Shown here in pieces: positions 10,151 through 63,219 of a stretch of DNA of 64,000 nucleotides; the first letter of the stretch is position 1; every line of letters starts with the position of its first letter. Both the position numbers and the translations under genes were made by a program. The notes under the pieces are model-generated. The model was not told where the DNA came from, did not search any database, and worked only from the letters and a program-made list of their open reading frames with translations. This DNA is from Romanomermis culicivorax (taxonomy: Eukaryota > Nematoda > Enoplea > Mermithida > Mermithidae), in the NCBI GenBank assembly GCA_963922205.1, contig CAWUHX010000167.1:620001-684000 (forward strand), read 5' to 3'.

Positions 10151-10192
10151 TCCTGAAATCGCCTATTAGTATGAGTTTTTTGATCTAAGGAT

Positions 10193-13153: not shown

Positions 13154-13371
13154 CTACACAAATTGTTCCTTAGGTTCTTCTTTGTATGCATAAACGATAC
13201 GATTCCAATCGACCAATGAATTATTCCTCGATCGTCGATATCCTATTTCTAGGTTTTCTTCAAAAAATGAAAATTTCCCAAAATGAAACAAGGAAACATA
13301 GTTTTTTCTACCTGAATTCGATGAAACTGCCGAATTAGGGGATTCTCGTCGTTCTGAATTTGTTTTCAAGT
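13154..13371 (-). CDS. TRPN copy A, C-terminal exons 27 and 28
   Basis: Two exons, 13312-13371 and 13154-13257, with a 54-base intron between them. Both begin and end in the same phase as exons 30 and 31 of copy B. The last exon reads [20 protein letters not shown] before the stop and matches the conserved TRPN tail (copy B IEKVINWKSIVVQYRQANG; fly NompC has an equivalent DW motif). Joined to exon 26 (donor at 22669), the frame is kept: the donor leaves one base and exon 27 supplies two. They are separated from exon 26 by 9.3 kb of transposon-laden intron, which could prevent efficient splicing. If that intron is retained, translation stops at TAG right after the donor. Confidence 0.75.
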
Positions 13372-16300
13372 CTATAAATTATGAAAATGATATAAAACTG
13401 ACGGAGATTCGTTTTCATCAAAACTATGAACCAATGAAATCCAAATAAAAATTTTTCATTTCAAAAAGTTGTACCCGTTGATCGCTTTGTGTTCAAAAAC
13501 AACAATCCACAAGTCCAGGATTATCGATGTATTCAACCTGAACGTGTCAAATTCTATCTTTGAAAATCATCCTGAATCAAATCCATGGCTAATGGTTATA
13601 AAATAGTTATTCAAGAAACCCATTTTACAAATAAAAGAGATACTTTTTTGTGTAAATCCATATTTAGTAAACAATTTTTACTCAAATTTTCAAATTCACT
13701 GAGCATGCATACTGCAGGCATAGCCTTGTTAGTTAATCATAGTTCAAGATTAAGATTAGGAAGAAAAATATTTGAAATACAGGGAAGAGCACATCTTTTT
13801 TTGGCAGAGATAGAAAAGAAAAAATTTTACATTTTAACTATTTACGCACCTGCAAAGGAGTCAATGAGAAAAGAATTTTATGATAAACTTTACAAGAAAA
13901 TTTGTGAAAACTTTAGGCATCATGATGAAGTGATAGTGTTAGGAGATTTTAATTTTACTGAAAATGGTGTACTTGATAGGGATTCCCAAAGAATACGAGA
14001 GAGCGAAACAGGGAAGGATAATTTTGAATTAATAAAGTCTAAGCTGAGTCTATTTGATGTTTTTCGTGAAAGATACCCAAAATTAAAACTTTTCTCACAT
14101 GTTTCAAATGCACATAAGACTAGTTCAAGAATTGATAGAATTTATAGTTCTAGACTACTTTGTGATGCTTTCAAAAGCTTCAGTTTCGTATTGGAAAATG
14201 GACACCAGTTTCTTGAGTACAAAAGATTCTCAGATTAAAATTGAGATAGAAAAAATTTTTTACACCAACTTTGAAAAACTAGCAAATTTAACTAGTGTAA
14301 ATTTAGTCAAAGGATGGGAAAGTTTCGAGTTGGATATAAAAGAGGACTTTATACAATTGAAAAAGAAAATAGTCAAAATACGAACAAAAACAAAGGAAAA
14401 TGCAGAAAAAAGCATGCAGAAACTACAAGAAAAAGTCAAACAAAATCCACAAGACATAAGTCTAAGGGAAGAATATAAGGGAAGAAAAAACGAATATAAA
14501 GTCATAGTTAAAGAAGAAATTAAAGAAAAGTTGATAAAAACTCATTATAGTGATATCTTAGCGGATCGTTGCTCTCTGGCTACAGCCAAAATGATGCAAA
14601 AAAGTCTGCAGGAAATAGAATAATAACATCAGTAAAATGTGAAGATGGAAGATTAATTGAGGACCAACTTGAGAAAACAATATGAAAAATTATTCAAATC
14701 TAACAAGGTAGACAAACAACAAAAAAATTTGTTTTTGGAAAAAGGCTCTACTTCTAAATTGAATACAGAGGAAAATGAGAGGTTAAATGAAGAGATATCA
14801 GAACAAGAAATTAGGGATGCTATTTTTTCATTGAAAAAGGGAAAAGCCCCTGGGGGTGATGGAATTCCATCCGAATTTTATCAAAAATTTGTTGATATTT
14901 TGGTCCCTTTCTTTAAAAAAATGCTGACAGCAATGTATGGTTCAAAAACATTAGGCAGTTCAATGTACCAAGGTGTAATTTCACAGATCTATAAGGGGGA
15001 AAAAGATAAATCAGAAAGGACTAGTTGGAGACCAATAACAATGTTAAATGTAGACTACAAAATATTAGCAAAAATTCTAGTAAATAGACTAAAAAGAATA
15101 ATGCCAAAAATTGTACATGAAGATCAAACATGTGCTGTTAAGGAAAGAGATATTAGAGACGGACTACTAAGAATTTATAATGTAATAAATTATTTGAATG
15201 AAACAAAAAAATCAGGAGTAATAGTATCACTAGATCATATGTCTGCCTTTGACATAATTGAATGGGAATATGTTTTTGATACACTAAAATATTTTAATAT
15301 TAGTGAAAAATATATAAATTGGATTAGAATAATTTACAAAAATGGATATGCAAATTCAGTCTTAATAATAAACGGCTATGAAACTTTCCCATTCAAAGTG
15401 ACCCGAGGCATAAGACAAGGGTGCCCTTTGTCTCCTCTCTTGTATGTCCTAGTCTCAGAAACAGTTTGTAATTATGTAAGGGCGGAAATATCAGTCAAAG
15501 GACTACACCTATTAGGAAAGGAATATAAGGTAAACTGTTATGCAGATGATACAAACTTTTTTGTTGAGGATTTAAAATCAATTAGCACAATTTTTAAGGT
15601 ATATGATAGGTTTCAAAAAGCTAGTGGTGCAACTCTAAAGAAGGAAAAAACTAAAATACTTTGTATAGGAGACAGTGAAGAACAAGTTAAGGAAAGTGAT
15701 TTTGGAGAGTATGTTTGTGAAAAATTGAAAATTTATGGAATTTATTTTGATAAACACGGAACAGACTGTGAGGAGAACTTAAAGCTACTAAAGGAAGAGA
15801 TCAACAGATTCAAGGGTAATTTAGCCTCAAGTAAAACATCCTACTATGCAAGAGCTAAAATAATTGACACATATTTTTTATCAAAATTGTGATATTCTTC
15901 CCTTTTTTGCAAAATTAGTTCAGATTTTTTAAAAATGATAGAAATTTTCACTGCAAATTTCATTTGGTCCAATAAATCAAATAGGAATCTTGTGGCTACT
16001 GCTAAGCTTAAACTACCTACATCAGTGGGGGGTTTGGGTTTGGCTGATATAGAGACAAAAGTTAGAGCAATGAGCTTAATGCTTCGAATTAGATGTCAGA
16101 AAAAGGACTTTGGTAATATTTTTTGGTTCTTTATAGATAAGGTAAAAGATAAAACAAAACGACAATTGAGCAGAACCAGTGCCCCTGAATTATATAAGAG
16201 GATTAGATTAGCAGAAATTGAATCAAAAATAGAATTATTGGATAATATGCAAATTGGGCTAAATAATCAAACTCTGAATTTGGATCAAATTTCTACAAAA

Positions 16301-19300
16301 TTACTTTGTTTTCAACTAACAAGGGATAAAGTACAAAATTTACAGCTAAAAATAACAAGATATTGGGAATTGAAATTGGGCGTAAATTCTAATGTAATAA
16401 AAAATCTTTTGAGTATAGGACCTGTGAAATTTGCTGACGGATATACGAGAAATTTGCATTTTTCTATAATTCATAGATTTTTACTTACAAGATCAAAAAT
16501 CAATCATATGAGTCCAAGCTCAGATCGGAATTGTAAGTTCTGTTTAGCCTCAAATGTTGAGGAAAGAGAGGATGTTTTCCACGCATTAGTTACCTGTCCG
16601 AGAGTTTCAGAAATATGGGTAAAAATTGCACAAATTTTGAAGAAACTTGATAATAACTTTTCCTTAGAAATTGAAAACTTTATTTTTGGGGTAAAACCAA
16701 AATTTGTTTCCAAGGATAAAACCATACTAGCAAATTTATTCATACAAATTGCTCAAAAAAGTATCTGGCAAATAAGAATGACTTTTGAGAATAAAAGCGA
16801 ACAAAAAGATCCTTGGGAAATTTTTAGAAAAAATTTCCAGGTTTATATTTTGAGACTTTACGATATATTAGAGTATAGGGTGTTGGAAAATTTTTTCCTC
16901 AAAAATAAAGTATGTAAGAAGAGTAGATATAAAATTTTAATAAATTTTTAAGGCCGTTCAGATCCTTGCATTTCTTCAGGGAAAAAATTTTTTTATTATA
17001 GCGGTTTCAAAATATATATTGATTTTTCTATTTTCGCATTATTTTCGTATGTTTGAAAAATAAGGTTTCATCAAAATTTATTTCACACGTAAAATTACTG
17101 TAGTTTAATTGTCATTTATGTTTTTTCGCTTCATTTTTTTTTCTCCGTCTGAATATTTTTAATTTTCAGGTAAGAATTATGTTATTTAGTTATAACGTTA
17201 ATCCAGATAAATTACATGCAAGTTTTTATATTGCTGGACATTATTGTATAGTTTTTTTGTTATCGTCGCGGGCCGTAAGACCAGGCCTTTTTTGATACCC
17301 CCTCTTGGCCAATAAAGATATTTAATTCAAAAAAAATCTATTAATCCTCCTAATTTTTTCTCTCTCTGGCTTGGAAATTTTCGTACATTTTTCACGTAAA
17401 TTTTTGTATTTATAAATTATGTATTTGTATTTATAAATAAATAATTTTACAAAAAAAAAATAAAAAAAAAATAAAAAAATAAAATAGTTGCTCAATTGGT
17501 TCTAACTAAGTCCTGAATTTTTAAGAAAAAAAATTTGATCAGATCTCTTCAAAAATTTTCGTAGGATTTTTAACTGTCCAATAATAAGAATTATTTGCCC
17601 TAAAAAAACTAGAATTTCAACCAAACGTGGTCGAGGTATTTCGTCAGTCAATTTCAATGTTTTTCCACACACAAAATTGTCTATCGAATCAAGTTTATTG
17701 TGGGGTTTGAGTTGATATTGACCTCAGGCAGACCACCTACCATAAGTAAATTTTTGAGTTCATCAGACCTTTGACTTTTCGAACCAGAGAATGCCAATAG
17801 ATTTCTCACTGTTTCAAGAACTAGTACGTTTTTGGAACTTTCTTGTCTGACACTGATTGAGACCTTACTAGAATGTAGCCATCAACTAATTTTAGGCTCT
17901 AATATCTATTAAACTCACATTTCAAAAGAATTAATCATTAAAAGCTGCAAAAGTATACAAAACACGAGTCGTAAAAATTGGTGATCGTATACTGTCGTTT
18001 GTATCATCACCGTTTCGAATCAGTTTTCTCAATATTTTTAGCATTGGCAATAAATTGAGTATCATTAAACTCAGTTTTGAATTTTTTGTTTGTTAGTACA
18101 TTGGGTCTAACCTCGTCTTTATAGTTATTTCTCTGGGATCCTAGAAAAAGGTTCTGAGCCGGGTGGAACTACTCTAAACAATAATTTACTTCTTATGATC
18201 AAGAAAAAGACTGCAACGACAAACAACAGATTAACTGATTCGTTTGTCTTTTCAGTTGTCAATGATTATGCAGCACTTCTACAGTAAGATGCATGGACTG
18301 TTTGATTTTTAGGTAATTGCACAAGAAACTAATGGCATAAAAAGTTATGGTTTGTCGTGAATGGGTGCAAATCAACGGTTACTGGAGTTGTGTATGGAAA
18401 TTTTTGAACAAGAAACAAAACTAAATAGTCTGTTTTTCTTCAAATGCTCGTAAATAATGACAGTAGAAAGCAAGTATTACAGTATATTTGCACGATTTTC
18501 TGCAGAACTACGTGTCACATATAACTGAAAATTTGTGAGATGCTCAACTACCGTTAAAATTTTTTTGGAGAATAACTTTATAATAAAAACTTTCTGTAAA
18601 GGATTTCGACAATAGTGCGAATTTTTTTTCATTTTCTGATTTACTGGCATTTTATAAAAAACAGAATGAGAAACAAAAGCGAAACATTGTAGAGTGGCCG
18701 GTTGCTAATTGAGTCATATTAGTCTTTTAATCATTATTTTCTGATCATTAGAATCGCACGAGATTTTGCACGGCAAATCCAGACCCACCTGATCCCATCA
18801 AAAGTGAAGGTTCGTGAGCGTGCAGAACTACAGTCTGTTTTTTTAAAAATGCTTTTAACTGAAAAAAGATGAAATAAAGTATACATGGTTTGTTCAATTA
18901 CCGCGCGCACACTATAATGTATTACAGGAAAAAACGCGCAATTGAAGTTTGACGGAATTGAAGGCTATTTGTTGGGAAAAAAGTTGGAAATGAGAAAAAA
19001 AATTTTGTACAGGATTCACATTTAATGAAAAAAATTGGGGGTTAAGGTCCTGATGTGCTTTGGAAAGTTGAAATCTCGCATCGCGCCGCAGCGCTGGTCA
19101 TTTGCTTAGCTTTTTTTGCGTAGAGCGAATATTTGTTTAGCCGTGCGAAATTTTTTTTGGACGTTTCTCGCACCAGACGGAAAAATAAGAGTTAAGATTT
19201 AGTTAAGAGTTTAGTCACAGTTTACGGCTGCCGGTTAATCGATTCCTAACATACAGTCAACAACGATATTATCTCGACATGAAATTCTGCATGCGTACTT

Positions 19301-22300
19301 ACTTTCAGCATTTTTGCGTAACAAGCATTTAAAAAAACAGACATAGACAAAATCTATCACTAGGTATATAACTTTGTGAGTTAAACGGGCCAACTCAAAT
19401 AGCCTACTACAACCCATGCGCCAGCATCGCGGAAAAGGCTCTTGCATTAGACCTTTATATCAATTATTGCGGCGCTCGTGGCGCATGCGGCGTTTGGATT
19501 TTCTGGGCTCGTATAGCTTCATTTCTGATGCGATGCTTGTGGCTTTCGAACATTTTCAGATGGTGAATGTTTTTTTCTACGTGTAAATATTTAATAGGCA
19601 AAATGTACACAGAAAAGACAAAATTAACATTGGTCGATATGAGACAATGCTAATAATATGTACAGAAAAATGCAGCTTTAATTCATTAGCTGAATATGAA
19701 TGCAGCCTTTTCACACACGCCTAATGCTTCACTCATCAGTACTCCAAAAACAAATATTCGTACATAGCATGCATGCTGACTAAAGCCAAGCTATATGAAT
19801 ACCTACACATCATTAATATTTAACCAAAAAAGTTTGGCATATTTCTATGGAGAAATATCAAAAAAAGATTTGGATATTTGTACCCAGAAATATCAAAAAA
19901 GATTTGCATATTTATATGGCCAACTCATATTTCAAGTTGCAGAAAACTCAGCTTAGTTTTTGTGGTCTGGTTGCACACTTCGCCATCTTTTCGATCGTTA
20001 GGTACTTAACTTTCTGTTGTGTTATGGCAAAGCAAAAAGACTGTATCGTTATAGCCACCAAATTTAATTATGTGTGGCGATTCAGCCACCATCTCGTTTC
20101 GGCCACTGTGTCTTTTCAGCCACCATCTCGTTTTAGCCACTTTTTCATTTCAGTCACTGCACGCATAACGTGACAATTTCTATTTTCTATACTCAATAAT
20201 TATCTCAATTGATCGATATTTATTATTCTTTTTCTTTTTGTTAATTTTTTTCATTTTTTTCTTCTTATTCTCTATCTCTTACTTTTCGCAACATTTCTCT
20301 TTTGTTTCATTTTTTCGTGTTGCATTATTTCGATTTTTCGTTCTTGATCGTTTCCTCGCGTGCCCGTTATTTTTCTCATCGATTTATTTTTGTATCTTGC
20401 ATTTTCCTTCTTTTCTTCTCACATTTCCTTGATTCTGTATGGTCTTCATTTTGTCTCCACTCAAAACATTTCTTTCCTTTCTCCGTTTTCTTTTCTCTGT
20501 TGATTTTGTTTTTTCTAATATCCTTTTGTCAGTTTCTTATTTTTCTTGTTTTCGTTTTTTTTATTTTTACTTTTTATTAACCATTTTTCACGTGTCTTTT
20601 ACCATTTTTTGTCACTTTCTTATTTTTTGTCCTGCATGTCCGGGCCATTTTCCCAGTAATTTTGATCCAGTGTTTTTTGATCCGTAAATCATCTCTTAGT
20701 TTACAGGACGCCATGGAATGTTAATTAATGCCGTCAGGGGACTAATACGCCAATTTAGGAAGGATAGCCGTCCATTTGCATCTCAAATCCAGGAAGAGTG
20801 CTTTTTTCAGAAGCCACAAAATACTCAAATTTGGGAAGAAAGTACGAAAAAAACGAATGAGCAGAAAATTCAGAATATTAATCTCATTATTTTAAACGAA
20901 TCATCTGAAAATTTACATCATATTCGTGTTTAATGTCATAGTCACTCGTACTCTCAGCTTAGTGGCTAAAACGATACAGTGGCTGAAACGAGATGGTGGT
21001 CGAAATGACACAGTGACTGAATCGACACACCTGATAAAAAATTGGTGGCTGGAACCATACGTGTGCACGGGGGGGTTTGACCCCCCCAGAATGGCTGCTG
21101 ACCCCGGACAGATTTTTCCTGACCCCCGCAGCAGAATTCGAAATTTCGGAATTTTTTTGGACTTTTCATAATTTTTATGTGCCAAATTGGCAAAAAATGA
21201 AAAATTTTCCCCCAGATTTTCGATACTGAACCAAAAGCTTGTATTTTTGATGTGAACATTTTGTTTCAATGCATTTATCAAAAAACATTTTTTTTTTCAA
21301 ATATCCCATTACTTTGAATGCATTGTTCATGTTGCATGATGTGGAATCATAAAAATTTGCGTTTTTCACCTGTGTGAACTTTCATTCAATATTTGTGTTA
21401 TTTTTTGTCTACTGTTTCACTTTCTCATTATTTTCAGTTTCGATTTCTTCCTTTCTTTTGGTATCAACCATTCTCTTATCATTTTTGTTCCTGGTTTACC
21501 TATCTTCTTCCCATTTTAATTCTCTGGTATATATTTTTGTTTCTTTTTCTTTTCAATTTTTTCTTCATTTTTCCTTTTCATCTTTTCTTTGGGTTTCTCT
21601 AATTTTTTTACGCCCCATGCGCCACAAACGCCTCATGCGCCACAAACGCCCAATGCGCCACAAACGCCTAATGCGCCACAAACGCCCCATACGCCACAAA
21701 CGCCTCATGCGCCACAAACGCCCAATGCGCCACAAACGCCTCATGCGCCACAAAGGCTCCATACGCCACAAACGCCCCATGCGCCACAAACGCCTCATGC
21801 GCCACAAACGCCCAATGCGCCACAAACGCCTCATGCGCCACGAACGCCCCATGCGCCACAAACGCCTCATGCGCCACAAACGCCCAATGCGCCACAAACG
21901 CCTCATGCGCCACAAACGCCTCATGCGCCACAAACGCCCCATGCGCCACAAACGCCTCATGCGCCACAAACGCCCAATGCGCCACAAACGCCTCATGCGC
22001 CACAAACGCCCCATGCGCCACAAACGCCTCATGCGCCACAAACGCCCCATGCGCCACAAACGCCTCATGCGCCACAAACGCCTCATGCGCCACAAACGCC
22101 CCATGCGCCACAAACGCCCCATGCGCCACAAACGCCTCATGCGCCACAAACGCCCAATGCGCCACAAACGCCTTATGCGCCACAAACGCCCCATGCGCCA
22201 CAAACGCCTCATGCGCCACAAACGCCCCATACGCCACAAACGCCCCATGCGCCACAAACGCCTCATGCGCCACAAACGCCTCATGCGCCACAAACGCCCC

Positions 22301-25300
22301 ATGCGCCACAAACGCCCCATGCGCCACAAACGCCCCATGCGCCACAAACGCCCCATGCGCCACAAACGCCTCATGCGCCACAAACGCCTCATTCGCCACA
22401 AACGCCTCATTCGCCACAAACGCCTCATTCGCCATATGCGCCATGAACGCCTAATGAAACAACACTTACAGAATGATAAATTCAAAACTTTTAACACTAT
22501 AATGCAAAACATAGTAGTAGGCTAACAGAGTTGGGCCAGTTAAACGGTAGCAAAAACGCATATTATTCCGAACTGTGAATCGGAGACAAATACCAAAAGA
22601 TGATAATTACTGGCAACAGTACTTTAACACTGATTTGCATCACTTACATTTGAAAAAAATTTTCTAACCTCTGATGCATTTATAAGCCCAATAAAATAAG
22701 TTGATCGGCACCGCGGGGTCGTTATCTTTCATCATTTGCCTGATCAATTTGGCCCTACCGAATTTCCATTCCAAATCGGATCGATTTTCGATTTTCCTGT
22801 ACGTGTCAGACATCATAGCAATCAAAAGATTGATCAAAACGACGATAACCACCATCAAATAGACGGCGATGGCGATTTTGAGTATAATTCTAGCGAATTT
22901 AGGCGAAATATCGATACTATCCGGCTCAATTATACCAAACATTGCGAAATATAACATTTCTACGATTTCTATGAAACTTTTCTGCGATGCTTCAACTTCG
23001 TTTATAAAGAGGGCAAAAATTGAGATGGAAAACCCGAATAAAAAAATGCATAGAATCGCCCAAAATTTACATAAGTCGACGATCAAATGACGTATGGTGA
23101 CGGCCCAAGGTCCGAACAAATGGTGCAAAGACAAAAATTCCAAAAATTGCGCGAAAGATATCAGAAGCACGACTGACAACAGCTGGTTGCGGATGTAGAA
23201 CAAAGTGTGCGAATTTTGAGGCGAAAAGACTGCGAAAATATGGGCAATAGTCGAAGAAATGGAAAACAAAATTTGAAAAAGGTGCAAAAGGTTTGGGGAG
23301 CCTTTTCGCTTAATTTCGCGAAAAATTTGACCAAAAATGAAAATAAGTAAGCACAATTCACTTAAATTAACGAAATCGTGTCGAAAACGTAGAGTTAACG
23401 ATATTAAAAGTATGCAGAAATAGATATGAGAAATTAAATGACAAATAAATTTTGTAACCGGGTCTCGTCGTCCGAAGGGTAAAGCGAAAAAAATCCAAAT
23501 CGGTGGAACTAATAAACAAATGAAAAATAACGAAAACAAGTAAATCAATCCAAATTTTGACGATCCACCAAACCACAAATCATGCACGTAATTTTGCGTC
23601 AAATTATGACTAATTATGAATTTTTGTTCATTACTGATTAGAATATCAATTAGCGGACGTTTTTCTTCGTCTTTCCATTCGAAAAATATTTCATTAGTAA
23701 TATTATCTTTATTATAACTACTGGAAAATTTGTTCACCAGTTGACAGGCTAACGATTGGCAAAAATCCGAACATTGTATTAAATTTCGGGAGCGTATTTT
23801 ATGAGTATCGGCCAAATTTTTGAAATTTCGGCTCAAAATAGCCGCAGTTACGAGTGGGAAATCAGAAACTAATATCAATTTTTCGATTAAATCGAATTTA
23901 TCTGACTCGGAAGGCGGTAGAATATCCATCAAAAACTGAAACAGAATGAAATTTTTGTCGCTCTATGATCATGATTTTACGTCAACAGGATTCCAACTGA
24001 TTCCGAGAAAAGATTACTGTAGTATTTGGTCTTCTTACAGCAATTGAATTTGTTGACGTCACATCAACCTCCCTCAGTTTTTTCATCACTGATGAATTGA
24101 CTTATTCTGCATACACTTCAGAGGCTGCTGGAGTTCTAAAAGTTCCTAAATCTTCGTGATTATACATCGGGGGAGGGTTTGGTAAAGTTGACGTTGACTT
24201 CATTCGAAAACTTTTTGATACAGTCATAAATGCCGCAAAATGAACCGCTATTAATAGATTCAAAACATGAGTCAAATTGGTGTATCACTATTTTTCTCTG
24301 AATTATGGGCAAATTTTCTTTACGGCTGTCTTAAAAGCATTGAATCATGACTAATTATTAATTTAAGCTACAGTCATTGCAGCATTCACATGTTGTCGTC
24401 GTAAAATAGTAACATTTTCGCCGGGTGCTTTCCTTATTTAATTCATTAGCCGTCAAACGTCAAAATGCCAAATGATTCCTTATTTTGCTATTGTGCAATC
24501 AAGAATTTCTTCATTACGACGGGATCGCCAAAATCATTGAAAAATTACGATGCTTATCCACGTTTGATTTGGATAGAACAGTGTATGACATCGAAATGTT
24601 ACTCGAGAAATTTTGACAATTAAACAAGGTTTTGGGGAGGACATTTTCACGTTGTGTACCTTCACTCCGTGTGTCCCGTTACACCAAATGTCCCGTTACT
24701 CCAAGTGTCTCATTACCCCAAGAATACTATAAATCTATTTTTAGACGTCTCATTACGCCATGAGTCCCATTACCCCAAGTGTCCCCTTACTTCAAGTGTC
24801 CCGTTACTCCAAGTGTCTCATTACCCCAAGAATGCCATAAATCTATTTTTAAAATTCTCATTACTCTATGAGCCCCATTACCCCAAGTGTCCGTTTACTT
24901 CAAGAATGCTATAAATTTTTAAGATTGCAATAAGATTAAAATGATTATTTTGCAGCTAATCATTTTAAAAGTATTTCAATATGCAAATTTGACTCTACGG
25001 TGCAATAACTCGTCTGAATAATTTATACATTGTCATTCCAAAACTTCCTCCGACAAGCACTTTTATTCAGATAACAGGTAAATGATGGGTTCAAAAGTTG
25101 TTGCAGTTTTTTACCGAAAAAAATTTAATAAAATGATGAAGATTTTTCAACTCATAGTTTAATTGTTATTTTTTAATTTAAATGACGTAACGAATATTAC
25201 ACGTTAACAATATGTATAATTATTTTCATTTAAAAAATTTTTTGACAATTATAAAATTATGACAAAATGCAGAAGATTTGACTTCTTATAAATAATTTTG

Positions 25301-44222: not shown

Positions 44223-44905
44223 TCAATGATCCTGATGGTCTATACATTTATCTTTAAGTTCATCGCTTTCGCGACCGTTGGCTTGTCTATATTGCACGAC
44301 TATCGACTTCCAATTGATGACTTTCTCGATTTTCCACGATTTGCTTTGCGATGCTAGTAGGCCGATTTCGGCCGCCATCGACTGCCTTCCGTAATTGTCA
44401 TCTATAAACAAAATATCAGGCTTTACGATTCGACATAACCTGTTTTCTGATAGCCGTTCTTCAAAATAAGAAAAGCTAGTTTCGAAAACGTTTAGCTTGT
44501 ATTGTTCTCCTTAGAATAGTGAACTGTAGGATAATTCACAGGAAGCATTCTTACTGTAGTTACCACTACGTCATCGAAGAAAATTTATATCTACAATCGT
44601 GCAAATTTAGATCTGCCATTAATCAATGGATTTTAATTTTTTACTGTATTTCACTAGATCGTGAAATTCGTGAGTTTTTGAGCTCCGTGAAATTTCACCG
44701 TGAGTTGTCAACCAATGGACTGATACATTGTTTCTTTTTAATACGTGATACTTATTCATGTGCCCAGTCATTCCTATCTTACCAGGTTTCGAGTAGATCA
44801 TCTTCAAAGTTGGCGAAATTCTACCCGCTTGTTCGCTCATCGAATAAGCGTCAATGTCTTCCAGTTGTCGCAGATCATCCTGAGCTTTGCTAGTGCACAT
44901 TCTTC
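44223..44905 (-). CDS. TRPN copy B C-terminal exons 30 and 31
   Basis: Exon 30 (44783-44905) reads CTSKAQDDLRQLEDIDAYSM and on to IYSKP. Exon 31 (44223-44401) reads DDNYGRQSMAAEIGLLASQS and IEKVINWKSIVVQYRQANG before the stop. Both joins are phase 1. The W-[KD]-x-[IV]-V pattern near the end is shared with copy A and with the tail of other TRPN proteins. Confidence 0.82.
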
Positions 44906-53900: not shown

Positions 53901-56900
53901 TTAGTTGCATAATTAGATCGTGATCTATCACTTCACGTGTTACAAGCATATCGAGATAACAAATACCAGATTTTGCATGATTTGACAGTACATTAATGAA
54001 GTAGCTAATATTCAGTAACATCACTCTCATGGATTATTGTAGATAGAATGATATTCAATTTCGCTCATAACTGCAATTGTAATAGCAAAAATGCATCTGA
54101 GTGAGATATGCAGGATAGCCATTTACTGAATTATAAAGTCATACATAAAAGACTATTCATTACTGAGAATACCTTTACTCGTGAAAGAGTTGACCTGATT
54201 GCCACAGATAATCAATTTTCGCTTTGGACGCTTTAGGCATACATATACTGTAGCAAAGTTTGATTCTGGCGCATCACAAGTGTATTTTTTAAACAAAAAA
54301 CTTACCATCAAAGTGGTAGCAGCGTCTACCTGCACCAAAGAAAAATTCAACAACAAACGAACCAGGCCCTCGTGGCCCGACTGGGCTGCCATATGAAGAG
54401 GCGTGAAGCCGTACTAAAATTACAGTACTATTATTTCGTGCAACGTCGGTAGAATACTCGCCAGTGGAATCTCACTTCGTTGGCGAACTCCCGAGACATG
54501 AGCGGTTTGTCGTTGTTCATGGGCGGCTCGGATCTTAGGGTCGGGGGCACGTTAAATAACAATGCCCTGACGAATTCCATTTGGCCGTAATAAGAAGCAA
54601 CATGCATGGCGCTCAAGCCGGTCTAAAAATCAATATCATACAGTAGCGGGTTACTCTGAACCTCGAAATATATATTGTCGTGACAAAAATCTCAAAAATG
54701 AGAAGAAGTGGACGAAAAGGCAAGAATGCATCAGTGAACAAGATCCAAAGGTAATACGAAAGTAAAAAGAAAAACAAAATTAAAAAGGACGGGAACAAAA
54801 GTTAGGAAAAGAAACCTGTTGGAAACATAAGGAATAAAGAAGGCTCAATAAGTAGAATGACGATAAGCAGTATAACAAATATGGGGAATCGGAAAGAAAT
54901 AAGAAATAAGAATAAGAAATATAGAATAATTAAAAAAGGCAAAAATAATCGATGACAAGGAAGTGAAACGAAAGAAAAGAATAAAGACATACAACAACAA
55001 AAATCAAAAGAGAGAAAGGAAATTTCACAGGGGATAGAAAGTAGGTGGAAATAAGAGAAATGAAAAAAAGACGATGAAAAGCAAGAGGAATGAGTAAATA
55101 TGACTCGAATTCGATGAAAGATGAATGAAAAAAGGTTAACGCTATGAAAACTCAAGCATAAAATATCAAAGAAGTTGGAATGCGAATAAAAACTATCTAG
55201 AAATGCTTCCAAGTAATAAAACATGAAAAATAAGCATTTTTTCATATTGTTAAGATTTTCTGACAAACAATTGTCACATATTGGATTTGAAATTGACGAG
55301 CAGTCTCAACTAACCGTTAGCAATTTTTTGAGTGAAAAATCCTTCAGAAAAAAATTAAAGCTTTGCTTTAACGATTTTGACGACAGCATTAATTTTTAGC
55401 ATTTTCCAATTTGGAAATATTTCATTAAACGCCGATTATAAACAAAAAAAGAAAAAATAAAAGAAGAAACAAAAAAAAGAAAAATAAGAAAAAACAAAAG
55501 CATTGACAAGAGGAAAGATGAATTGCAACATAAAGAATTCGCACCTTAACGGGAAAAGAAAAAATTATCACAGTTGCCTCTGGGAGAAATATTATGTTGC
55601 AGCTAATTCGATATTGAACCAGAAATTATTCAATAGGATACTTTTCTGCTGCATTTTTTCCATACATCTTCTTCGAAAACGTCCAAAAGTGCCGTGTGAC
55701 CATTTTTGGCCGCCAACTGCAAGGGTGTCATACCGGTCTACAATAACAGTGATGAGAAATTTCCATAATTCAGAACTTCATGAATCATCAGAACTCACAT
55801 CATCCTCCTGTAGGGGATCTGCCCCCGCGGTAAGCAGTATTTTCACAACGTTCTTGAAGCCGCCTTCTGCAGCCATGTGCAAAGTCGTGGCTTCCCGGGC
55901 CTGCAAAAAGTTGTTCGATTGACAGGGGCCTGCTTCGATATACTGTGATTTTTTCTACAAACTTTAGTTTTCGCTTCGATGACTACTTTCCTATCAATCA
56001 TCATCAATTCCTTGATGACGGCCACGCTTCCCTTCATGGCCGCAATATGTGCGCAAGTTAAACCGTTTTCGTCCTAAAATACATGTTCTCTTGTTTACTG
56101 TAACTTCTTCTATCATACTGTGATCTTACTGTAGCTGTCAACGTTGTCAAATCCGGTTTCAATTTCAAAAATAGCTTCACTACTTCGGGATGGTCGCTTT
56201 CGGCGGCCAGGTGGAAGGGCGTACGGCCGCGGCCTTCGTGGGCGTTCGGGTTGGCACCCATGCTCAATAGTGTCGTGCACACTTGTAGTTGACCGGCTTG
56301 GGCAGCCAGATGCATAGGCGTGTAGCCCTCCTGGAAAAAGAGCTGAAAATTTCATAATCTTCGAGAAAATTTTCCTTTCCTCACGTTATTCACTGCGTCG
56401 ACGAAAGCCTTGTGAACCTGGACTAATAGAACGACCACTTTTCGATAGCCATTTACGGCCGCGAAATGCAAAGGTGTGAAGCCGGTCTTAGTCTTGCTGT
56501 TGATAAAAGCTTTACTTTTGACGAGCAGGTCGCAAATTTCCACGTGACCGTGCTCGGCGCTCAAGTGAAGAGCGGTTTTGCCGGCCTGATGAAAAATTTG
56601 ATTGCACAATTAACAATGTCGGGCAAAAGTTGAGGTCCTCGCAGTTGCCAGACTCATTTTTTGATTAGCAGCCTGGATCATATTGGACTATCAGTTTTTA
56701 ACCCCAAATTCGTATAATTTTTACGCTTAGTCGCCTAAATTTATCCAAAATGATCTTGATCATAACCTCGATCAAAAAATACATTTTGCTAGACACTTCA
56801 ATTTTGACTATATGAAAAAACGTGTTTTACCTAATTTTTTCTATATCTCCGGGACTGTTTTTTGAAGTGCAAGCCACATAGTTGAGGCATTGTTGAACTA

Positions 56901-59900
56901 AAGTATAGACTTTTGTGCGTCAGAAAGGAGTTCAATGTCAGTATGAACCCAAAATTTTGAATTTTTAACAATAATTCTTACAAGGTAAAATATGAAATGA
57001 ATCATTTTTGGTCTTTTCATACTTTAAGCCAGTAAAAATGGATATAACCCATCATTTTGTGCGTATATACCCTCGAGCAAGGAGTTGAATGGCATTGTTT
57101 TGGGGCATAATCTACAGCAGAAGCAGCAATATAATATATAGTTAATTTTGCATTAAATGTTTGGATATTGAAAAATGACGGAAATTAAGAATGTAGTCGA
57201 AATCATTTATACAACGATTAACAACTTTCATAGTGAAACCAAATGATTTTTACTCAAAAAATATTGAAGGTTATTTGAGTAAGCTCGTGAATTTTCAGTC
57301 CTATGCTACATATGGTTCAGCAGAAAAGTGTGAAAGATTGAATGAAACTTGCACCCAATTTTGTTGTTTAAAAACATTTCAAGAAAAACAGAAAATAGAT
57401 TTTTATTGCAGGTTTATTCAAAATATGGCTGCAAGAACAAACTTGTTTTCATGGCAAATCATGATTTTAGTGTTAGTCGTGAATTAACTTTCACTGTGGA
57501 AGCACAATACAGCTTGAAATTTATGCGTCGACCGCAATTTCATAAAAATGAGGATTTACTTCGTCGAAGACGTCCACTCTAGCGTGGTGATCCAAAAGTA
57601 TCCTGGTCACTATCAAATGACCTTTTTCGCAAGCTTCCATCAATGGGGACCAACCAGCCTGAAAATTTTTCGGAGTCAAAAGTCAAGGCGCATGTCAAAA
57701 TGCAAAATTCTCACAAACTTTGGACTGCCGATTTAAGGCTATTTGGATGGCACCGGGTTGTATTTTCCGGACAATCGTTTTCATTACTTCTTCGTTACCA
57801 GATCTTGCACAATAATGTAGCACGGTTTCGCCAGTCTTTAATGATTTGTAGAAAAATAGGAAAATAGAAAAGAAAAGAAAAGAAAAGAAAAGAAAAGAAA
57901 AGAAAAGAAAAGAAAAGAAAAGAAAAGAAAAGAAAAGAAAAGAAAAGAAAAGAAAAGAAAAGAAAAGAAAAGAAAAGAAAAGAAAAGAAAAGAAAAGAAA
58001 AGAAAAGAAAAGAAAAGAAAAGAAAAGAAAAGAAAAGAAAAGAAAAGAAAAGAAAAGAAAAGAAAAGAAAAGAAAAGAAAAGAAAAGAAAAGAAAAGAAA
58101 AGAAAAGAAAAGAAAAGAAAAGAAAAGAAAAGAAAAGAAAAGAAAAGAAAAGAAAAGAAAAGAAAAGAAAAGAAAAGAAAAGAAAAGAAAAGAAAAGAAA
58201 AGAAAAGAAAAGAAAAGAAAAGAAAAGAAAAGAAAAGAAAAGAAAAGAAAAGAAAAGAAAAGAAAAGAAAAGAAAAGAAAAGAAAAGAAAAGAAAAGAAA
58301 AGAAAAGAAAAGAAAAGAAAAGAAAAGAAAAGAAAAGAAAAGAAAAGAAAAGAAAAGAAAAGAAAAGAAAAGAAAAGAAAAGAAAAGAAAAGAAAAGAAA
58401 AGAAAAGAAAAGAAAAGAAAAGAAAAGAAAAGAAAAGAAAAGAAAAGAAAAGAAAAGAAAAGAAAAGAAAAGAAAAGAAAAGAAAAGAAAAGAAAAGAAA
58501 AGAAAAGAAAAGAAAAGAAAAGAAAAGAAAAGAAAAGAAAAGAAAAGAAAAGAAAAGAAAAGAAAAGAAAAGAAAAGAAAAGAAAAGAAAAGAAAAGAAA
58601 AGAAAAGAAAAGAAAAGAAAAGAAAAGAAAAGAAAAGAAAAGAAAAGAAAAGAAAAGAAAAGAAAAGAAAAGAAAAGAAAAAGAAAAGAAAAGAAAAGAA
58701 AAGAAAAGAAAAGAAAAGAAAAGAAAAGAAAAGAAAAGAAAAGAAAAGAAAAGAAAAGAAAAGAAAAGAAAAGAAAAGAAAAGAAAAGAAAAGAAAAGAA
58801 AAGAAAAGAAAAGAAAAGAAAAGAAAAGAAAAGAAAAGAAAAGAAAAGAAAAGAATATTATTATTAACAGTCAACAAAATTTACCGTAATTGTTTGAATA
58901 TTAATTTCGCCGCCATAATCCAATAGTAAATTTATCAAATCCACGTCCTCGCCTGTATCACTTTTAGCTCTGGCGCTACTTTCGGCGCATAAATGCATAG
59001 GTGTTTCACCCGACTGCGACAAAGAATAAATTTGCATAATGAGATTGCAAATAAATTCAATTTATCTCACAGTAGTTTGTCGATTGACCAATTGAGTACA
59101 TTCTTCTCGCCGGCGATTATTTTCTATATGTTCAAGTAAGGTTTTGGCCGCTTCAAAGTGACAAAATCTGGCCGTGACGTGCAACGGCGTTTCTCCATGC
59201 TTGAAAAATTGGAAACAAAATGAGCTACTTGAATATCTAACCAAAAATTTTTGATGTCTACTGTATAGCCATCAATACAGTATCCCCGCGAAGAAAATTT
59301 GTAACAGCATTCCTTCCGCTTGATTTGAAAGACGAAAACTTGCATTTACACTGCCAAATTACTCGAATTTTAAGAGTTATTGTCTGATCATTTTTACGAT
59401 TGTATTTTTACCTCTTTTAACTTGTACGTCAACATCAATAGCTGAATCTTACCACAGAAGTTGCCAAGGGTTCAGCTCCTTCCGACAGCAAGAGCTTTAT
59501 CATTTTGACGTCACCAGTTTTGCTAGCAATATGCAAAGCAGTCTGTCCATTCTAAAAAATTGATAACCTTGATGCAGCGACAAAAACAGAGTAAGTTTCA
59601 TGAAGTAGGAATCCTCAATTTCTACGATCTAACATTTCCATGTAATGAACTATTGTAGCTTAAGCTCTGCAAGTTGGAAAGTTTCTTTGATTTCAATTCC
59701 AATAGCTACATTAAAGAGATCATCGATTCTCCAAAATTTGTAAAATGATTTCAAGCTACTCTAGTCCAACTGATACCTCTAATTTAGAATTGACGTCAGC
59801 ACCGCTTTTTAGCAGCATTTCGGCGCACCTCAGACCGCCCGTATTATCTATACCGGCGGCAACGTGTAAGGCCGTTTCGGCTAACGGACCCCCTTTGATA

Positions 59901-62900
59901 GAAACGTCGGCGCCGTGGCCGAGTAGAATTTCCACCACTTCGTACTTTTCGGCTTGCACTGCTACATGCAGAGCCGTATAATTATCCTGAAAGATAGGTC
60001 AGCAGGTGCAGGATGTACTCCAAATATGAGAAGTATGTATCAATGATTGCATTTCTCTTTTAACAGAATTTGGCTGTTGACGTCAGGTCGAGCCACATGA
60101 ATGAGGCAATTTACTTTTGTTTTAGAGTCGACTGGAGTCCCTTTGTTGAGTAAGGCTTTGACAACGTCGATGTGGCCCAAGGTTGCAGCCAAATGTAAGC
60201 CCAAGGCTCCACTCTGAAAAATTTGAAGCACAATTAAGAATCCGACGTTCATTTTGGCTACAAATAATGAAATGATCAAAGATATCATGGGTACTGTGCA
60301 GGGCAATATCAGAAGCTGTATGATGGTTGAAAGATTCAATTTTCTAATTGATTGCTTGATTTTTTAATTTTGTTTGCCAATTTTCAGTTCAAAATGACAG
60401 TATTTGTTGTTTTCCTCAAATTATTGAAAATGTTTAATTTCTAGCTAATTTTTTGATTATCCAGCCGGTTGAAATAACTAGATGAATCAAAAAATGATCA
60501 CTCAAATACATTTTCCATGTCTGCTTGAGGAATTCACGAGTTAGTGCTGAATTATGGAAGAATCTTTTACACAAGATGTTTCATGATCCGCAGAGGCATG
60601 ACCAAGTGTTGTGTTTCGGAAACTCAACTAAATTGTGATTTGTAGATAGGGATTATAATGCATAACTCACTTTGTTGGGCATGTACAACGGCACGCCGCG
60701 TTTCAAAAACGCCAAAGCGGTATCGGAATGACCGAATTTCGAGGCTATGTGCATCAAGGTGCTTCCATCCTCAAAAGAGTGAAAAACATCCGTGGTCAGA
60801 GTGCGCTCTAACCTCAAGTTTTTGATTTAATTTTTGAAGGATGTCTGCTACGAGAATATGTTGACGTATTTGAGTTTGAAATGGACTGTACCACTGAACA
60901 TTACCTTGGTCCTAGCAAAAACTGAAGCCTTGAATTTGTCGGCCAAAAGTTCGACCATGTTTGTGTAACCCTTTTCTGCTGCAACATGCAAGGGGCTTTT
61001 GTCTTCCTGACAATGGATCGTGAAATGGAAAAAATAAGTGGAAAGAGAAATCAGGGTCAAAAACTCTAACGTTGTCTGTTATGTTCGCATCGGCTTTAAA
61101 ATGGTAGAGGATTTTGAGCATACTTTCGGAGTTCGAAGCCACTGCCAAAAATATGGGCGTTTGGCCCGCATTCTAGAAAAATTTCAAGATTTATAAGCCA
61201 AATAAAAAATGTGAGTAAAAATAAAATCTAACGTTTTGAATATTGATTAAGGCACCATTTTCGCACAGAAGCTTCAAAAGCTCGGAATTGCGGGATAACA
61301 CAGCCGCGTGAAGCACGCCGTCTCCGTTGTCCTGCAAAAAATTTCATTTACCTCCATATGATTAACCAAATATAAAAATATCACCTTTCTTTTAACTTTT
61401 ATCTGTCTTTCGGGTTGAACCTGCAATAATTCTCTGCATACCTGCATATTACCCTTTTCTGAAGCCAATAATAAAGGCGTGGCGCCATTCTACAGGAAAA
61501 TCCAGTCACGTGACAGCATCTGTTATTGATAGAATGTTCCTAATAACTCACGCCATCTTGAATGTACCGGCATTCGGGGTAGGCTTTCAGTACGAGGCTT
61601 ACCACCGCGTAGGCATGAGGCGGCGGTCTGACCACAGCCATATGAATCGGGAGTTGCTGATTTGGCTGAAAATTTTGCTTTGAAAAAATATCATCTCACC
61701 GTCCGTCATCTTACACCAAACGGCTCCCTCCAGTTATTCAATTTTTTGGCGATTAAAAATGATACCACATCTTCTTTTGAGTACATGGCCGCGATGTGAG
61801 ATATACTGCGGCCATCCTAAGGATGCATATTCGTGAGTAATAAGCTAATGTAGTCGTTTTGCTAAAAGTTCTTCTAAATAACTAAGTTCATACCTTTGTT
61901 TTCTCTTCCAGATCGGAACCCAATTCCAGCAATCGTTCGGTTATTGCTAACTTGTCGTCCTTGACAGCGAACATCAATGGAGTCATTCCTTCCTATAAGA
62001 ATATCTAGACGTGATATTTCTGTTGAGCCTAATTTCTGAATGAAAAGTAGACCCTAATTTTATTCGAATCAGTTGTGACGTTTTTCCACGCAGGATATTT
62101 TTTGTAAACCGCAAACGTTTTCCGAGACTTCTATACCAAAAAATGAAACGATTATACAAGGTACAGTATTTTTTGAATTTTTCATTACATTGGCTCCTAA
62201 GCAAGTGTCTAACTTCTTCAATATATGAAAAATAGAATTTGGTATCGGCTAACAGTATTCCGATGTATAAGTTGATTTTTTAAATTTTTTTACACCCATT
62301 ACATTTGCTTCGTAAGATCACTTCTGCTTCCGAACTTCAATTTCTTTTTACAATATAATTTCACAATTATCAATGAACCATAACATTTTTTTGAAGAATT
62401 TCTAAAATTCAACTTCCGAAGTCCGAGTCGATTTAACAACCCTTCAGCCTGGATTGAACACCAAAAATTTTAGGTATTTGGTGCAAGTCTGACTGACAAG
62501 AACCATTGATGATATGATGCGTGGTTAAATTAGTCATGATGAAATTTAATGATACTATTAAAAATTGGCTAACTGTAAGTGTGCATAGATCAATACGTAC
62601 TGCCGCCATGTGCATGAAACTTTGAAGGTAAAAACTGGAATACAGATAACTTATATGAGGAACAAAACCCCAACATTTTAGCTTGGCTGGTTGGAGACAC
62701 TACAAGATCAAAATGTGTTTTTTATATGACTATCCTAAACCATGTATGGAAAAGCCAGTTTACTAAAGAAATTTTAGGAAAATACACGATGTTTTATATT
62801 TGCGCCAAGTGTAATAAAATTGAATCTCATACCTAAGCAAAAGACACAAAACGAAAATTTCAATGTACTCAGCTAACCTCATCTGTCAAACTCAAATTCA

Positions 62901-63219
62901 ACTTTTGTTCATTGATATAGTCTAAAAGAGTGTCCACTTTCGACCATTGACCCTTTTTGCACAATTTTATCAATTTCGTGGACGGATCACGTTTCATACG
63001 TTCGATGTCCAACTTAATTTTGGCACCGCGATCGCCGTCGTCGTCGCCCAAGCTGCTTATTGAGCTGGGCGCCAAAGATGGTTTTCGTGAAAAGTTTTCG
63101 ATCGGTTCCTGGACGTCTAAAGTTGTCGGGGCGGCTGATGGCGACAAGGGCGATTTAGGTGTGGTAACGCTTCCGCCCGCGCTCTGACGTAGCTCAAATT
63201 TCTCTAAAATGTGTAACAT
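44223..63219 (-). CDS. TRPN (NompC/TRP-4) mechanosensory channel, copy B, 31 exons
   Basis: Mechanically gated cation channel subunit expected in ciliated touch and proprioceptive neurons (known for the family, not shown here). Exons, 5' to 3': 1 62878-63203 (or to ATG 63219); 2 61894-61992; 3 61715-61816; 4 61552-61665; 5 61385-61489; 6 61233-61331; 7 61071-61172; 8 60905-61006; 9 60671-60769; 10 60115-60213; 11 59777-59986; 12 59453-59551; 13 59071-59199; 14 58885-59013; 15 57719-57835; 16 57560-57658; 17 56385-56585; 18 56130-56330; 19 55963-56073; 20 55799-55900; 21 55666-55737; 22 54458-54622; 23 54306-54413; 24 53042-53239; 25 52724-52930; 26 51068-51295; 27 50426-50620; 28 48764-49097; 29 46434-47054; 30 44783-44905; 31 44223-44401. 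Joined, they give about 1696 residues without a stop. Exons 2-27 are all phase 0. Alignment with fly NompC is recognisable along the whole length (e.g. LADKFKASVFARTK, LNRQS, HARVDVFD). All introns are GT-AG. No lesion was seen, so this copy looks functional. Confidence 0.93.
44906..46433. other. TRPN copy B intron 29
   Basis: 1.5 kb intron between the membrane exon and the C-terminal tail. No mobile element or exon recognised. If it is retained, the reading frame meets a stop after two codons (GGT GAG TGA). Confidence 0.55.
46434..47054 (-). CDS. TRPN copy B exon 29: S5, pore, S6 and TRP box
   Basis: 207 codons starting DAEQLKLQQTLLYMRNQLFS. Contains the S4-S5 motif [21 protein letters not shown]5 (RFLVILFLFMSGFTISISAI), a pore helix LTQTIQMLYFSLFGLVDPTN and S6 ([20 protein letters not shown]). 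The TRP box [12 protein letters not shown] follows, with IQAQSDIEWKFG matching fly NompC exactly around it. The extracellular loop before the pore is longer than in copy A. Confidence 0.95.
48430..48660 (+). repeat. Purine-rich tract in TRPN copy B intron 28
   Basis: A/G-biased sequence (AAAGAGAGAATAAAAAAAGA and similar), pyrimidine-rich in the transcript. Likely a decayed simple repeat. Confidence 0.6.
48764..49097 (-). CDS. TRPN copy B exon 28: S2 to S4
   Basis: Starts at IFFSLPFAFRISKAPIIKFV, continues through S2 (CHLVSHIYFTILLILETL), S3 (NEWILLLWLSGILVAELSRL) and S4 (LAYVRLVEILLGSVAVLLHL). It ends in CCTG before GTGAGA, phase 1; the open frame continues past this donor but without homology. 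Confidence 0.92.
49311..49531. mobile_element. MITE, TTTGAAATGATCGATGCAGC family (copy 1)
   Basis: Ends TTCATTCTGAAATGATTGAT and CTGCATCGATCATTTCAAAG are inverted repeats. Shares its interior (CTTGAAATGGTTTAAAAGAG, AATAAAAGTTTCACTGCGAC) with the copy at 51756. In intron 27 of TRPN copy B. Confidence 0.75.
49659..49855. mobile_element. MITE, TTTGAAATGATCGATGCAGC family (copy 2, inverted)
   Basis: Starts CATTCATTTTGAAATGATCG and carries TCGCAGAAAAACTTTTATTC and ATCACTCTTTTTAATCTTTT, which are the complement of the first copy's interior. The far end is less clear. Confidence 0.6.
50426..51295 (-). CDS. TRPN copy B exons 26 and 27: linker helices and S1
   Basis: Exon 26 (51068-51295) encodes FVYDLMLCGKNYNNRSVEEF and SPAPIETAVKLSSLYKYL, the post-ankyrin linker helices known from NompC. 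Exon 27 (50426-50620) encodes RPFIDVLIENEQKAVVSHVS and S1 up to LFSCPPAW. Both are phase 0. The motif IDVLIENEQK is conserved in fly. Confidence 0.92.
51756..51978. mobile_element. MITE, TTTGAAATGATCGATGCAGC family (copy 3)
   Basis: Ends GCATTCAATTTGAAATGATC and TTGCATCGATCATTTGAAAA, about 223 bases, in the same orientation as the copy at 49311. In intron 25 of TRPN copy B. Confidence 0.75.
52724..53239 (-). CDS. TRPN copy B exons 24 and 25, last ankyrin repeats
   Basis: Exon 24 (53042-53239) has IPLHLAAQSGHVAVVGMLLS and RTALHLASSNGHLEMVSLLL. Exon 25 (52724-52930) has GWTALHHATSAGHAQVVKLL and ends MDDRK. In exon 25, ETREGKVALCFAAARGHINV occupies the position of fly NompC's SETNYGCAAIWFAASEGH. 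Confidence 0.94.
53432..53641. mobile_element. Putative MITE, ATTTTCAGATGAGCCTCGGAA ends
   Basis: Left CATTTTCAGATGAGCCTCGG and right CCGAGGCTCATTTGGTAAAA are imperfect inverted repeats around 160 bases. One-ended relatives occur near 33404 and 41657. In intron 23 of TRPN copy B. Confidence 0.5.
54306..56585 (-). CDS. TRPN copy B ankyrin exons 17 to 23
   Basis: Seven phase-0 exons coding consecutive ankyrin repeats. Typical cores are KTALHLSAEHGHVEICDLLV (17), YTPMHLAAQAGQLQVCTTLL (18), [20 protein letters not shown] (19), TTLHMAAEGGFKNVVKILL (20), TGMTPLQLAAKNGHTALL (21), LSAMHVASYYGQMEFVRALL (22) and FTPLHMAAQSGHEGLVRLLL (23). Exon 19's [11 protein letters not shown] corresponds to CAHIAAMQGSV in fly. 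Exon 22 has an insertion (PPTLRSEPPMNNDKPLMSR) matching a similar insertion in fly. Confidence 0.93.
54660..55510 (+). repeat. Purine-rich low-complexity tract in TRPN copy B intron 21
   Basis: About 850 bases strongly biased to A/G on the plus strand (GAAAGAATAAGAAATAAG-like text), hence pyrimidine-rich in the transcript. Open frames of FSF-type residues on the minus strand are compositional artefacts. Probably an old, mutated version of a simple repeat like that at 57866. Confidence 0.65.
56640..57550. other. TRPN copy B intron 16
   Basis: No exon recognised. Contains TAGTCTG-family repeat debris at about 57150-57420 (CTACATATGGTTCAGCAGAA, TTTCAAGAAAAACAGAAAAT). Confidence 0.45.
57560..61992 (-). 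CDS. TRPN copy B ankyrin exons 2 to 16
   Basis: Fifteen phase-0 exons of 33-70 codons, mostly one ankyrin repeat each. Examples: GMTPLMFAVKDDKLAITERL (2), SISHIAAMYSKEDVVSFLI (3), QLPIHMAVVRPPPHAYAVV (4), SPLHVAAEKGYTNMVELLA (8), [20 protein letters not shown] (9) and YTALHVAVQAEKYEVVEILL with ETALHVAAGIDNTGGLRCAE (11). Exon 15 has TVLHYCARSGNEEVMKTIV and exon 16 has GWSPLMEACEKGHLIVTRIL. Fly NompC has the same order ([25 protein letters not shown]). The acceptor of exon 9, TTTTGAG, is slightly unusual. Confidence 0.93.
57866..58855 (+). repeat. (AAAAG)n microsatellite, about 197 copies
   Basis: About 990 bases of almost uninterrupted AAAAG, with one extra A near 58681 that shifts the phase. 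It fills most of intron 14 of TRPN copy B. In the transcript it reads (CUUUU)n. The 360-codon FFSFL frame on the minus strand is an artefact. Such purity implies recent expansion. Confidence 0.98.
61993..62877. other. TRPN copy B intron 1
   Basis: No exon, repeat or mobile-element end recognised. Confidence 0.5.
62878..63219 (-). CDS. TRPN copy B exon 1 in the window
   Basis: Encodes a low-complexity Ser/Pro-rich stretch (SVTTPKSPLSPSAAPTTLD), then PSSISSLGDDDGDRGAKIKL and LIKLCKKGQWSKVDTLLDYI, ending LSLTDE at a GTTAGC donor. It may begin at ATG 63217-63219, which has a stop just upstream. Alternatively it is an internal exon starting at 63203 after ATTTTAG; the phase (two bases completing a codon) allows this, and copy A has an exon further upstream. 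Confidence 0.75.

Follow-up and report, generated by a model that had tools for sequence, protein, structure and literature searches.

The window analysed here, a 64,000-nucleotide stretch of Romanomermis culicivorax DNA (bases 620001-684000 of contig C167), holds two genes for TRPN channels, which we call A and B. The first-pass annotation had proposed two complete head-to-tail TRPN genes between 13154 and 63219, and both were recovered there on the minus strand, with A beginning at 63219 and the stop codon of B ending at 13154 (positions are those of the window unless a contig is named).

44223..63219, minus strand: TRPN gene A, the conserved copy; 31 exons, 1724 aa; spliced alignment with ends set by hand
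42845..44222, no strand: spacer from the stop of A to the start of B; 1378 nt (~1.4 kb)
13154..42844, minus strand: TRPN gene B, the divergent copy; 28 exons, 1536 aa; spliced alignment

Self-comparison of the translated DNA revealed collinear pairs of exons on the minus strand, and the models were built from DNA only, by a purpose-written splice-aware alignment with frame reading at gaps. For the first exons and tails of both genes, the only guides were frame, phase, and splice signals. Exon borders of B were set by alignment with the A protein as query, which biases the result towards agreement, so that the agreement between the two models is partly built in. All introns in both models are GT..AG, the smallest measuring 49 nt, and the sole stop in the model of gene A is the terminal one.

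The shared strand and the 1378 nt between the genes would fit a pair that forms one transcription unit, either an operon or a read-through precursor, in which B would have no control of its own. We consider this arrangement quite unlikely, given the length of the spacer and the TATAAA motif 60 nt upstream of the B start codon, although in AT-rich DNA this motif is a weak consensus match. A search for the SL1 RNA family gave no match, and its controls equally gave none, which makes this result uninformative.

Several other features surround the pair. A large inverted repeat at 5474-10158 has arms that are ~81-84% alike in their main blocks around a 0.1-kb centre, and two frames tested within it matched no family. 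Two arrays of a 14-bp unit, at 1326-1611 and 2050-2272 on opposite strands, are possibly the ends of one mobile element. Outside the window, at ~607.3-607.7 kb of contig C167, the strand that carries the TRPN pair also has a MORN-repeat exon (Pfam, 69 bits) that we read as junctophilin-like; speculatively, this neighbour might reflect synteny shared with C. elegans chromosome I.

Exon structure of the two copies

The exons of gene A, all on the minus strand, are as follows; repeat units in both genes were counted by hand from exon lengths.

62878..63219, minus strand: exon 1, N-terminal region and start of the ankyrin domain; start codon chosen, putative
52724..61992, minus strand: exons 2-25, 24 phase-0 ankyrin exons giving 29 repeat units, with matches to Pfam ankyrin families
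61992-61894, 61816-61715, 61665-61552, 61489-61385, 61331-61233, 61172-61071, 61006-60905, 60769-60671, minus strand: exons 2-9, ankyrin
60213-60115, 59986-59777, 59551-59453, 59199-59071, 59013-58885, 57835-57719, 57658-57560, 56585-56385, minus strand: exons 10-17, ankyrin
56330-56130, 56073-55963, 55900-55799, 55737-55642, 54622-54476, 54413-54306, 53239-53042, 52930-52724, minus strand: exons 18-25, ankyrin
51295-51068, 50641-50426, minus strand: exons 26-27, linker helices and start of S1; aligned to NOMPC
49097-48764, 47054-46434, minus strand: exons 28-29, S1-S6, pore, and TRP helix
44905-44783, 44458-44223, minus strand: exons 30-31, C-terminal tail, phase 1; frame and splice sites only

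The intron between exons 14 and 15 of gene A carries an array of ~198 copies of a 5-bp AGAAA unit (99% match, 57866-58855), which ends 30 nt short of exon 15. Gene B is built as follows.

42844-42715, 42646-42531, minus strand: exons 1-2, N-terminus and start of the ankyrin domain; exon 1 by frame and splice sites only
27063..42472, minus strand: exons 3-25, 23 phase-0 ankyrin exons giving 28 repeat units
42472-42374, 41368-41270, 36856-36746, 36689-36585, 36526-36428, 36370-36269, 36209-36108, 36029-35931, minus strand: exons 3-10, ankyrin
35858-35760, 34698-34486, 32955-32857, 32798-32667, 32617-32504, 32447-32337, 32283-32185, 32114-31914, minus strand: exons 11-18, ankyrin
30715-30515, 30457-30353, 30288-30193, 29992-29849, 29789-29682, 27521-27324, 27269-27063, minus strand: exons 19-25, ankyrin
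30048..30150, minus strand: relic or skipped ankyrin exon, matching exon 21 of A; out of frame with its neighbours and excluded from the model
22669..23935, minus strand: exon 26, 1267 nt; linker helices, S1-S6, pore, and TRP helix
13371-13312, 13248-13154, minus strand: exons 27-28, C-terminal tail, phase 1; frame, phase, and splice sites

In the excluded segment of B (30150-30048) an ankyrin repeat can still be read, but the sole acceptor seen could be used only with an intron of 28 nt or a shift of frame. The frame of B is intact when this segment is omitted, and B therefore has 28 repeats. The tail exons of B sit downstream of a 9.3-kb intron. Antisense within this intron, at 13576-16951 on the plus strand, lies a stretch resembling a non-LTR retrotransposon, with frames matching Pfam endonuclease (30 bits) and reverse transcriptase (125 bits) families and a third frame without a family match; an 18-bp minisatellite of ~46 copies (92% match) occupies 21610-22434 of the same intron.

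In both genes, all ankyrin exons are phase 0 and encode one or two repeats apiece. For 25 of the 30 introns of A, gene B has a counterpart of equal phase at the corresponding position, which falls in the identical alignment column for 21 of them and at most 6 columns away for the other 4. Five introns of A have no such counterpart: one flanks the missing exon of B, three interrupt the linker/S1-S4 region, and one belongs to the poorly aligned tail. It had been suggested that the copies share a 25-exon ankyrin architecture. Whole ankyrin exons number 24 in A and 23 in B, to which the end of the first exon or exons is added. Similarly, the suggestion that exon lengths and phases persist holds for the ankyrin exons, where 14 of 23 pairs are equal in length and the other nine differ by 3-15 nt, each time a multiple of three, but fails for the linker and pore region and for the one ankyrin exon that is no longer usable in B.

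The linker and pore, also thought to be built alike, are in fact encoded by a single exon in B (23935-22669) where A has four, since the A introns at 51067-50642, 50425-49098, and 48763-47055 are absent from B. In this two-sequence comparison, the simplest reading is that B would have lost three adjacent introns. Nor do the copies have the same tail as had been assumed: the C-terminal tail of B is shorter than that of A, as are its N-terminus and its S5-pore loop.

Channel family and gating residues

From their sequences, both genes encode 28-29 ankyrin repeats, linker helices, S1-S6, a pore, and a TRP helix; the stack of ~27-29 repeats expected for TRPN channels is present in A (29) and B (28), with Pfam ankyrin families matching it. 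Of the PDB chains compared, none came near Drosophila NOMPC (5vkq_A) as a match, whether to the pores or to the longer proteins of A and B, with 9.8e-61 for the pore exon of B and 885 bits for the whole B protein, and 2.4e-44 for the pore of A and 1061 bits for a 1242-residue partial A; the alignments to NOMPC start at residue 77 for B and 125 for the partial A. Scores for Pfam Ion_trans (cut-off 25 bits) were 29.3 for A, 22.6 for the whole B protein, and 29.2 for a raw genome stretch of B.

Twelve signature residues have been given for TRPN channels, with H at position 1311 as in TRPN1 (PMC9242649, in the part available). Eleven of these are exact in A and likewise in B, including H1311, and Y stands for F at position 1501; at signature position 1551 the 5vkq chain itself carries Q rather than N. 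Of the residues reported as critical for NOMPC gating, K1244, Q1253, W1572, S1577, and R1581 (PMC8186909), both copies retain four, while S1577 is alanine in both, a substitution that impaired NOMPC as a mutant (PMC8186909). The gate residue I1554 is retained in A and B. The interface residues D1142, R1127, and E1163 also impair NOMPC when mutated (PMC8186909); the one of these three that we compared, E1163, is E in A and K in B. The 18-letter TRP motif, reported as identical across all orthologs studied in the available part of PMC4494053, is complete in A and has 15 of 18 letters in B. Because the pivot and several signature residues are also found in other TRP families, their presence is no proof of force gating. 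An AlphaFold2 model of the B pore exon, with four A fragments as alignment, was poor (mean pLDDT 54) and gave no support.

Divergence of A and B and selection on B

Strong divergence of the copies had been noted from the outset, and the numbers bear it out: A and B are 43.1% identical across 1532 aligned codons, with differences of 46/31/64% at the three codon positions, pN of 0.38, and pS of 0.78, at which synonymous sites are saturated. There are no stops in the 1536 codons of B. When we simulated unselected decay of the B coding sequence with substitutions only, a 10% third-position change produced a mean of 17 stops (lowest 9, 30 runs) and a 30% change a mean of 43 (lowest 30, 30 runs). 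This contrast indicates that B has been under selection for most of its life. A simple old pseudogene, considered as an explanation for B, was ruled out by the finding of 0 stops where on average at least 17 would be expected.

A rather unlikely alternative is that selection acted on B through most of its history but that the gene was recently inactivated and has begun to decay. Such a loss would fit the ankyrin exon that is out of frame, the longer branch of B, its weaker Ion_trans score, its modified TRP motif, and the 9.3-kb intron with a retrotransposon-like stretch. However, the 28 modelled exons contain no stop or frame shift, the frame survives omission of the faulty exon, and B retains the signature, the gate residue, and all but one of the five residues critical for gating. 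We regard the locus as probably the product of a whole-gene tandem duplication, in which A is the conservative copy, likely with the ancestral job, and B diverges faster while being kept under selection as a channel.

At the 1208 sites comparable with NOMPC, identity was 45.7% between A and B, 46.4% between A and NOMPC, and 36.4% between B and NOMPC. With the three-point rule on raw differences, these values give branch lengths of ~0.22 for A, ~0.32 for B, and ~0.31 for NOMPC. By these distances, either B would evolve at ~1.45 times the rate of A or the pair would be very old, a choice that three sequences cannot decide. Under the second option, which we deem unlikely, the pair would be older than the divergence of nematodes from arthropods, or than that of the main nematode lines from each other, and one copy would have been lost in other lineages. 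It would account for A being equally near to fly NOMPC and to B, for a B branch about as long as the fly branch, and for the saturated synonymous sites, but three sequences cannot root the pair, and a faster B after a later duplication yields the same numbers; moreover, B is also far from NOMPC, and the published censuses give a single copy elsewhere. No TRPN relative with which to root the pair turned up in scans of viral and prokaryote contigs (4 and 36 pattern stretches, 0 confirmed).

Copy number in the genome and in the literature

A search of the whole assembly (359,112,060 bases, 595 contigs) with the pore of A returned four matches: A itself, B (3.5e-51), and two weak ones on contigs C9 and C484 with 38% identity over 69 residues each, which we took to be other TRP genes. 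No third TRPN pore was found in this search. The paired TRP-like hits at C9 ~1585-1589 kb and C484 ~51-60 kb have the same or nearly the same scores and are probably leftover haplotype duplicates on a large and a small contig.

It was conceivable from the start that alleles, or collapsed copies, had been set in tandem by misassembly, and the 3.2% of duplicated orthologs retained in the assembly and the paired hits on C9 and C484 speak in favour of this. For the TRPN genes, this explanation is hardly credible: a protein identity of 43% lies far beyond allelic difference and the genome search recovered each pore a single time, which together exclude it in practice, and the v2 assembly was made from HiFi reads with a reported QV of 54.97 (359.1 Mb, 595 scaffolds, N50 1.0 Mb; PMC10879605). 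Allelic misassembly was accordingly rejected, the identity being far too low. Elsewhere in the assembly, a long COX1 frame in the invertebrate mitochondrial code lies beside GC-richer DNA at 991073-995422 of contig C117 (1.03 Mb), with a probable ND5, read from the translation, on the opposite strand; this is either mitochondrial DNA that was inserted into the nuclear genome or sequence joined during assembly.

The first-pass annotation had also pointed to the single TRPN genes of C. elegans and Drosophila, and by the literature two genes are an unusual number (PMC4494053, PMC11526382). Exactly one TRPN gene is reported for all Bilateria except amniotes, with a reset to one even where vertebrate genomes were duplicated as a whole (PMC4494053), and PMC11526382 likewise gives one TRPN in bilaterians; the resistance to duplication has been put down to the structural demands of the ankyrin superhelix (PMC4494053, PMC11526382). 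The available parts of papers on fish and fly (PMC12729289), cephalopods (PMC13402157), octopus (PMC12919962), oyster (PMC8004665), and barnacle (PMC6497305) contain no bilaterian with two TRPN genes, and those of a study of the leech nervous-system transcriptome report no TRPN (PMC7992859). Among the literature matches listed, as far as their available text goes, there was no description of a nematode, or any other bilaterian, with two TRPN genes, and Romanomermis and trp-4 occurred together only in PMC12867699 (2026) and its preprint. Using OrthoFinder, that study tallied mechanosensory paralogs across eight nematodes, among them R. culicivorax, for which it cites the 2013 genome; the second Romanomermis copy may already be included in its counts. 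The whole word TRP had no match in the 2013 R. culicivorax genome paper (PMC3890508). Two TRPN genes in one bilaterian genome are an unusual copy number in a known family, and not a new kind of system.

Discussion

NOMPC is reported to open when the compressed ankyrin stack presses the linker helices onto the TRP helix, making the latter rotate around W1572 (PMC8186909; AR29 in that paper is the last ankyrin repeat of NOMPC). The lower-gate and pivot residues and most of the linker/TRP contact residues of NOMPC are kept in both Romanomermis copies, and as most parts for an opening of this type are present, our working reading is of two force-gated channels. Each protein would form a tetramer with its ankyrin stack tied to the cytoskeleton; the stack would push or twist the linker helices against the TRP helix, and the latter would pivot at the conserved tryptophan so that S6 opens. 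Less certainly, the two copies may serve different cells or force ranges. A new or divided role would more likely fall to B, because its S5-pore loop and tail are shorter, it has one repeat fewer, and its TRP motif is changed.

A more far-reaching possibility, which we put forward tentatively from the sequences, is that R. culicivorax could be an exception to the rule of one TRPN, with two working channels that divide the labour: A would serve general touch, and B a mechanical task specific to mermithids, alone or in A+B heterotetramers. R. culicivorax is an enoplean mermithid and an obligate parasite of mosquito larvae (PMC10879605), and a candidate task for B would be, for example, finding or boring into swimming larvae. 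The nearest support for a role in host finding is Strongyloides stercoralis, in which TRP-4 is required for skin penetration (PMC12350745), and for this reason parasite biology would also benefit from study of the pair.

The copy-number rule makes a second copy surprising to channel evolutionists, and a kept, strongly diverged second bilaterian TRPN offers a natural test of the idea that these genes resist duplication. The parts that tolerate change appear to be the turret, the tail, one repeat, and some letters of the TRP helix, and those that do not are most linker/TRP contacts, the pivot, and the gate.

Among known systems, the closest in architecture is Drosophila NOMPC (TRPN1; PDB 5vkq), with which A shares the number of 29 ankyrin repeats and both copies share linker helices, S1-S6, and the TRP helix, at 46% identity for A and 36% for B (1208 compared sites). 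Drosophila has one gene (PMC12729289, in the part available), whereas Romanomermis has a second, B, with 28 usable repeats and an S5-pore loop shorter than that of A. TRP-4 of C. elegans and Strongyloides stercoralis is likewise a nematode TRPN, and in C. elegans it links the sensing of textured surfaces to behaviour through dopaminergic neurons (PMC12350745); the available text of that paper speaks of one trp-4 gene in each of these species, in contrast to two in Romanomermis. TRPN duplicates have also been kept in Hydra, with four copies, and Nematostella, with two (PMC4494053), but these animals are cnidarians and their duplications are independent of the one described here.
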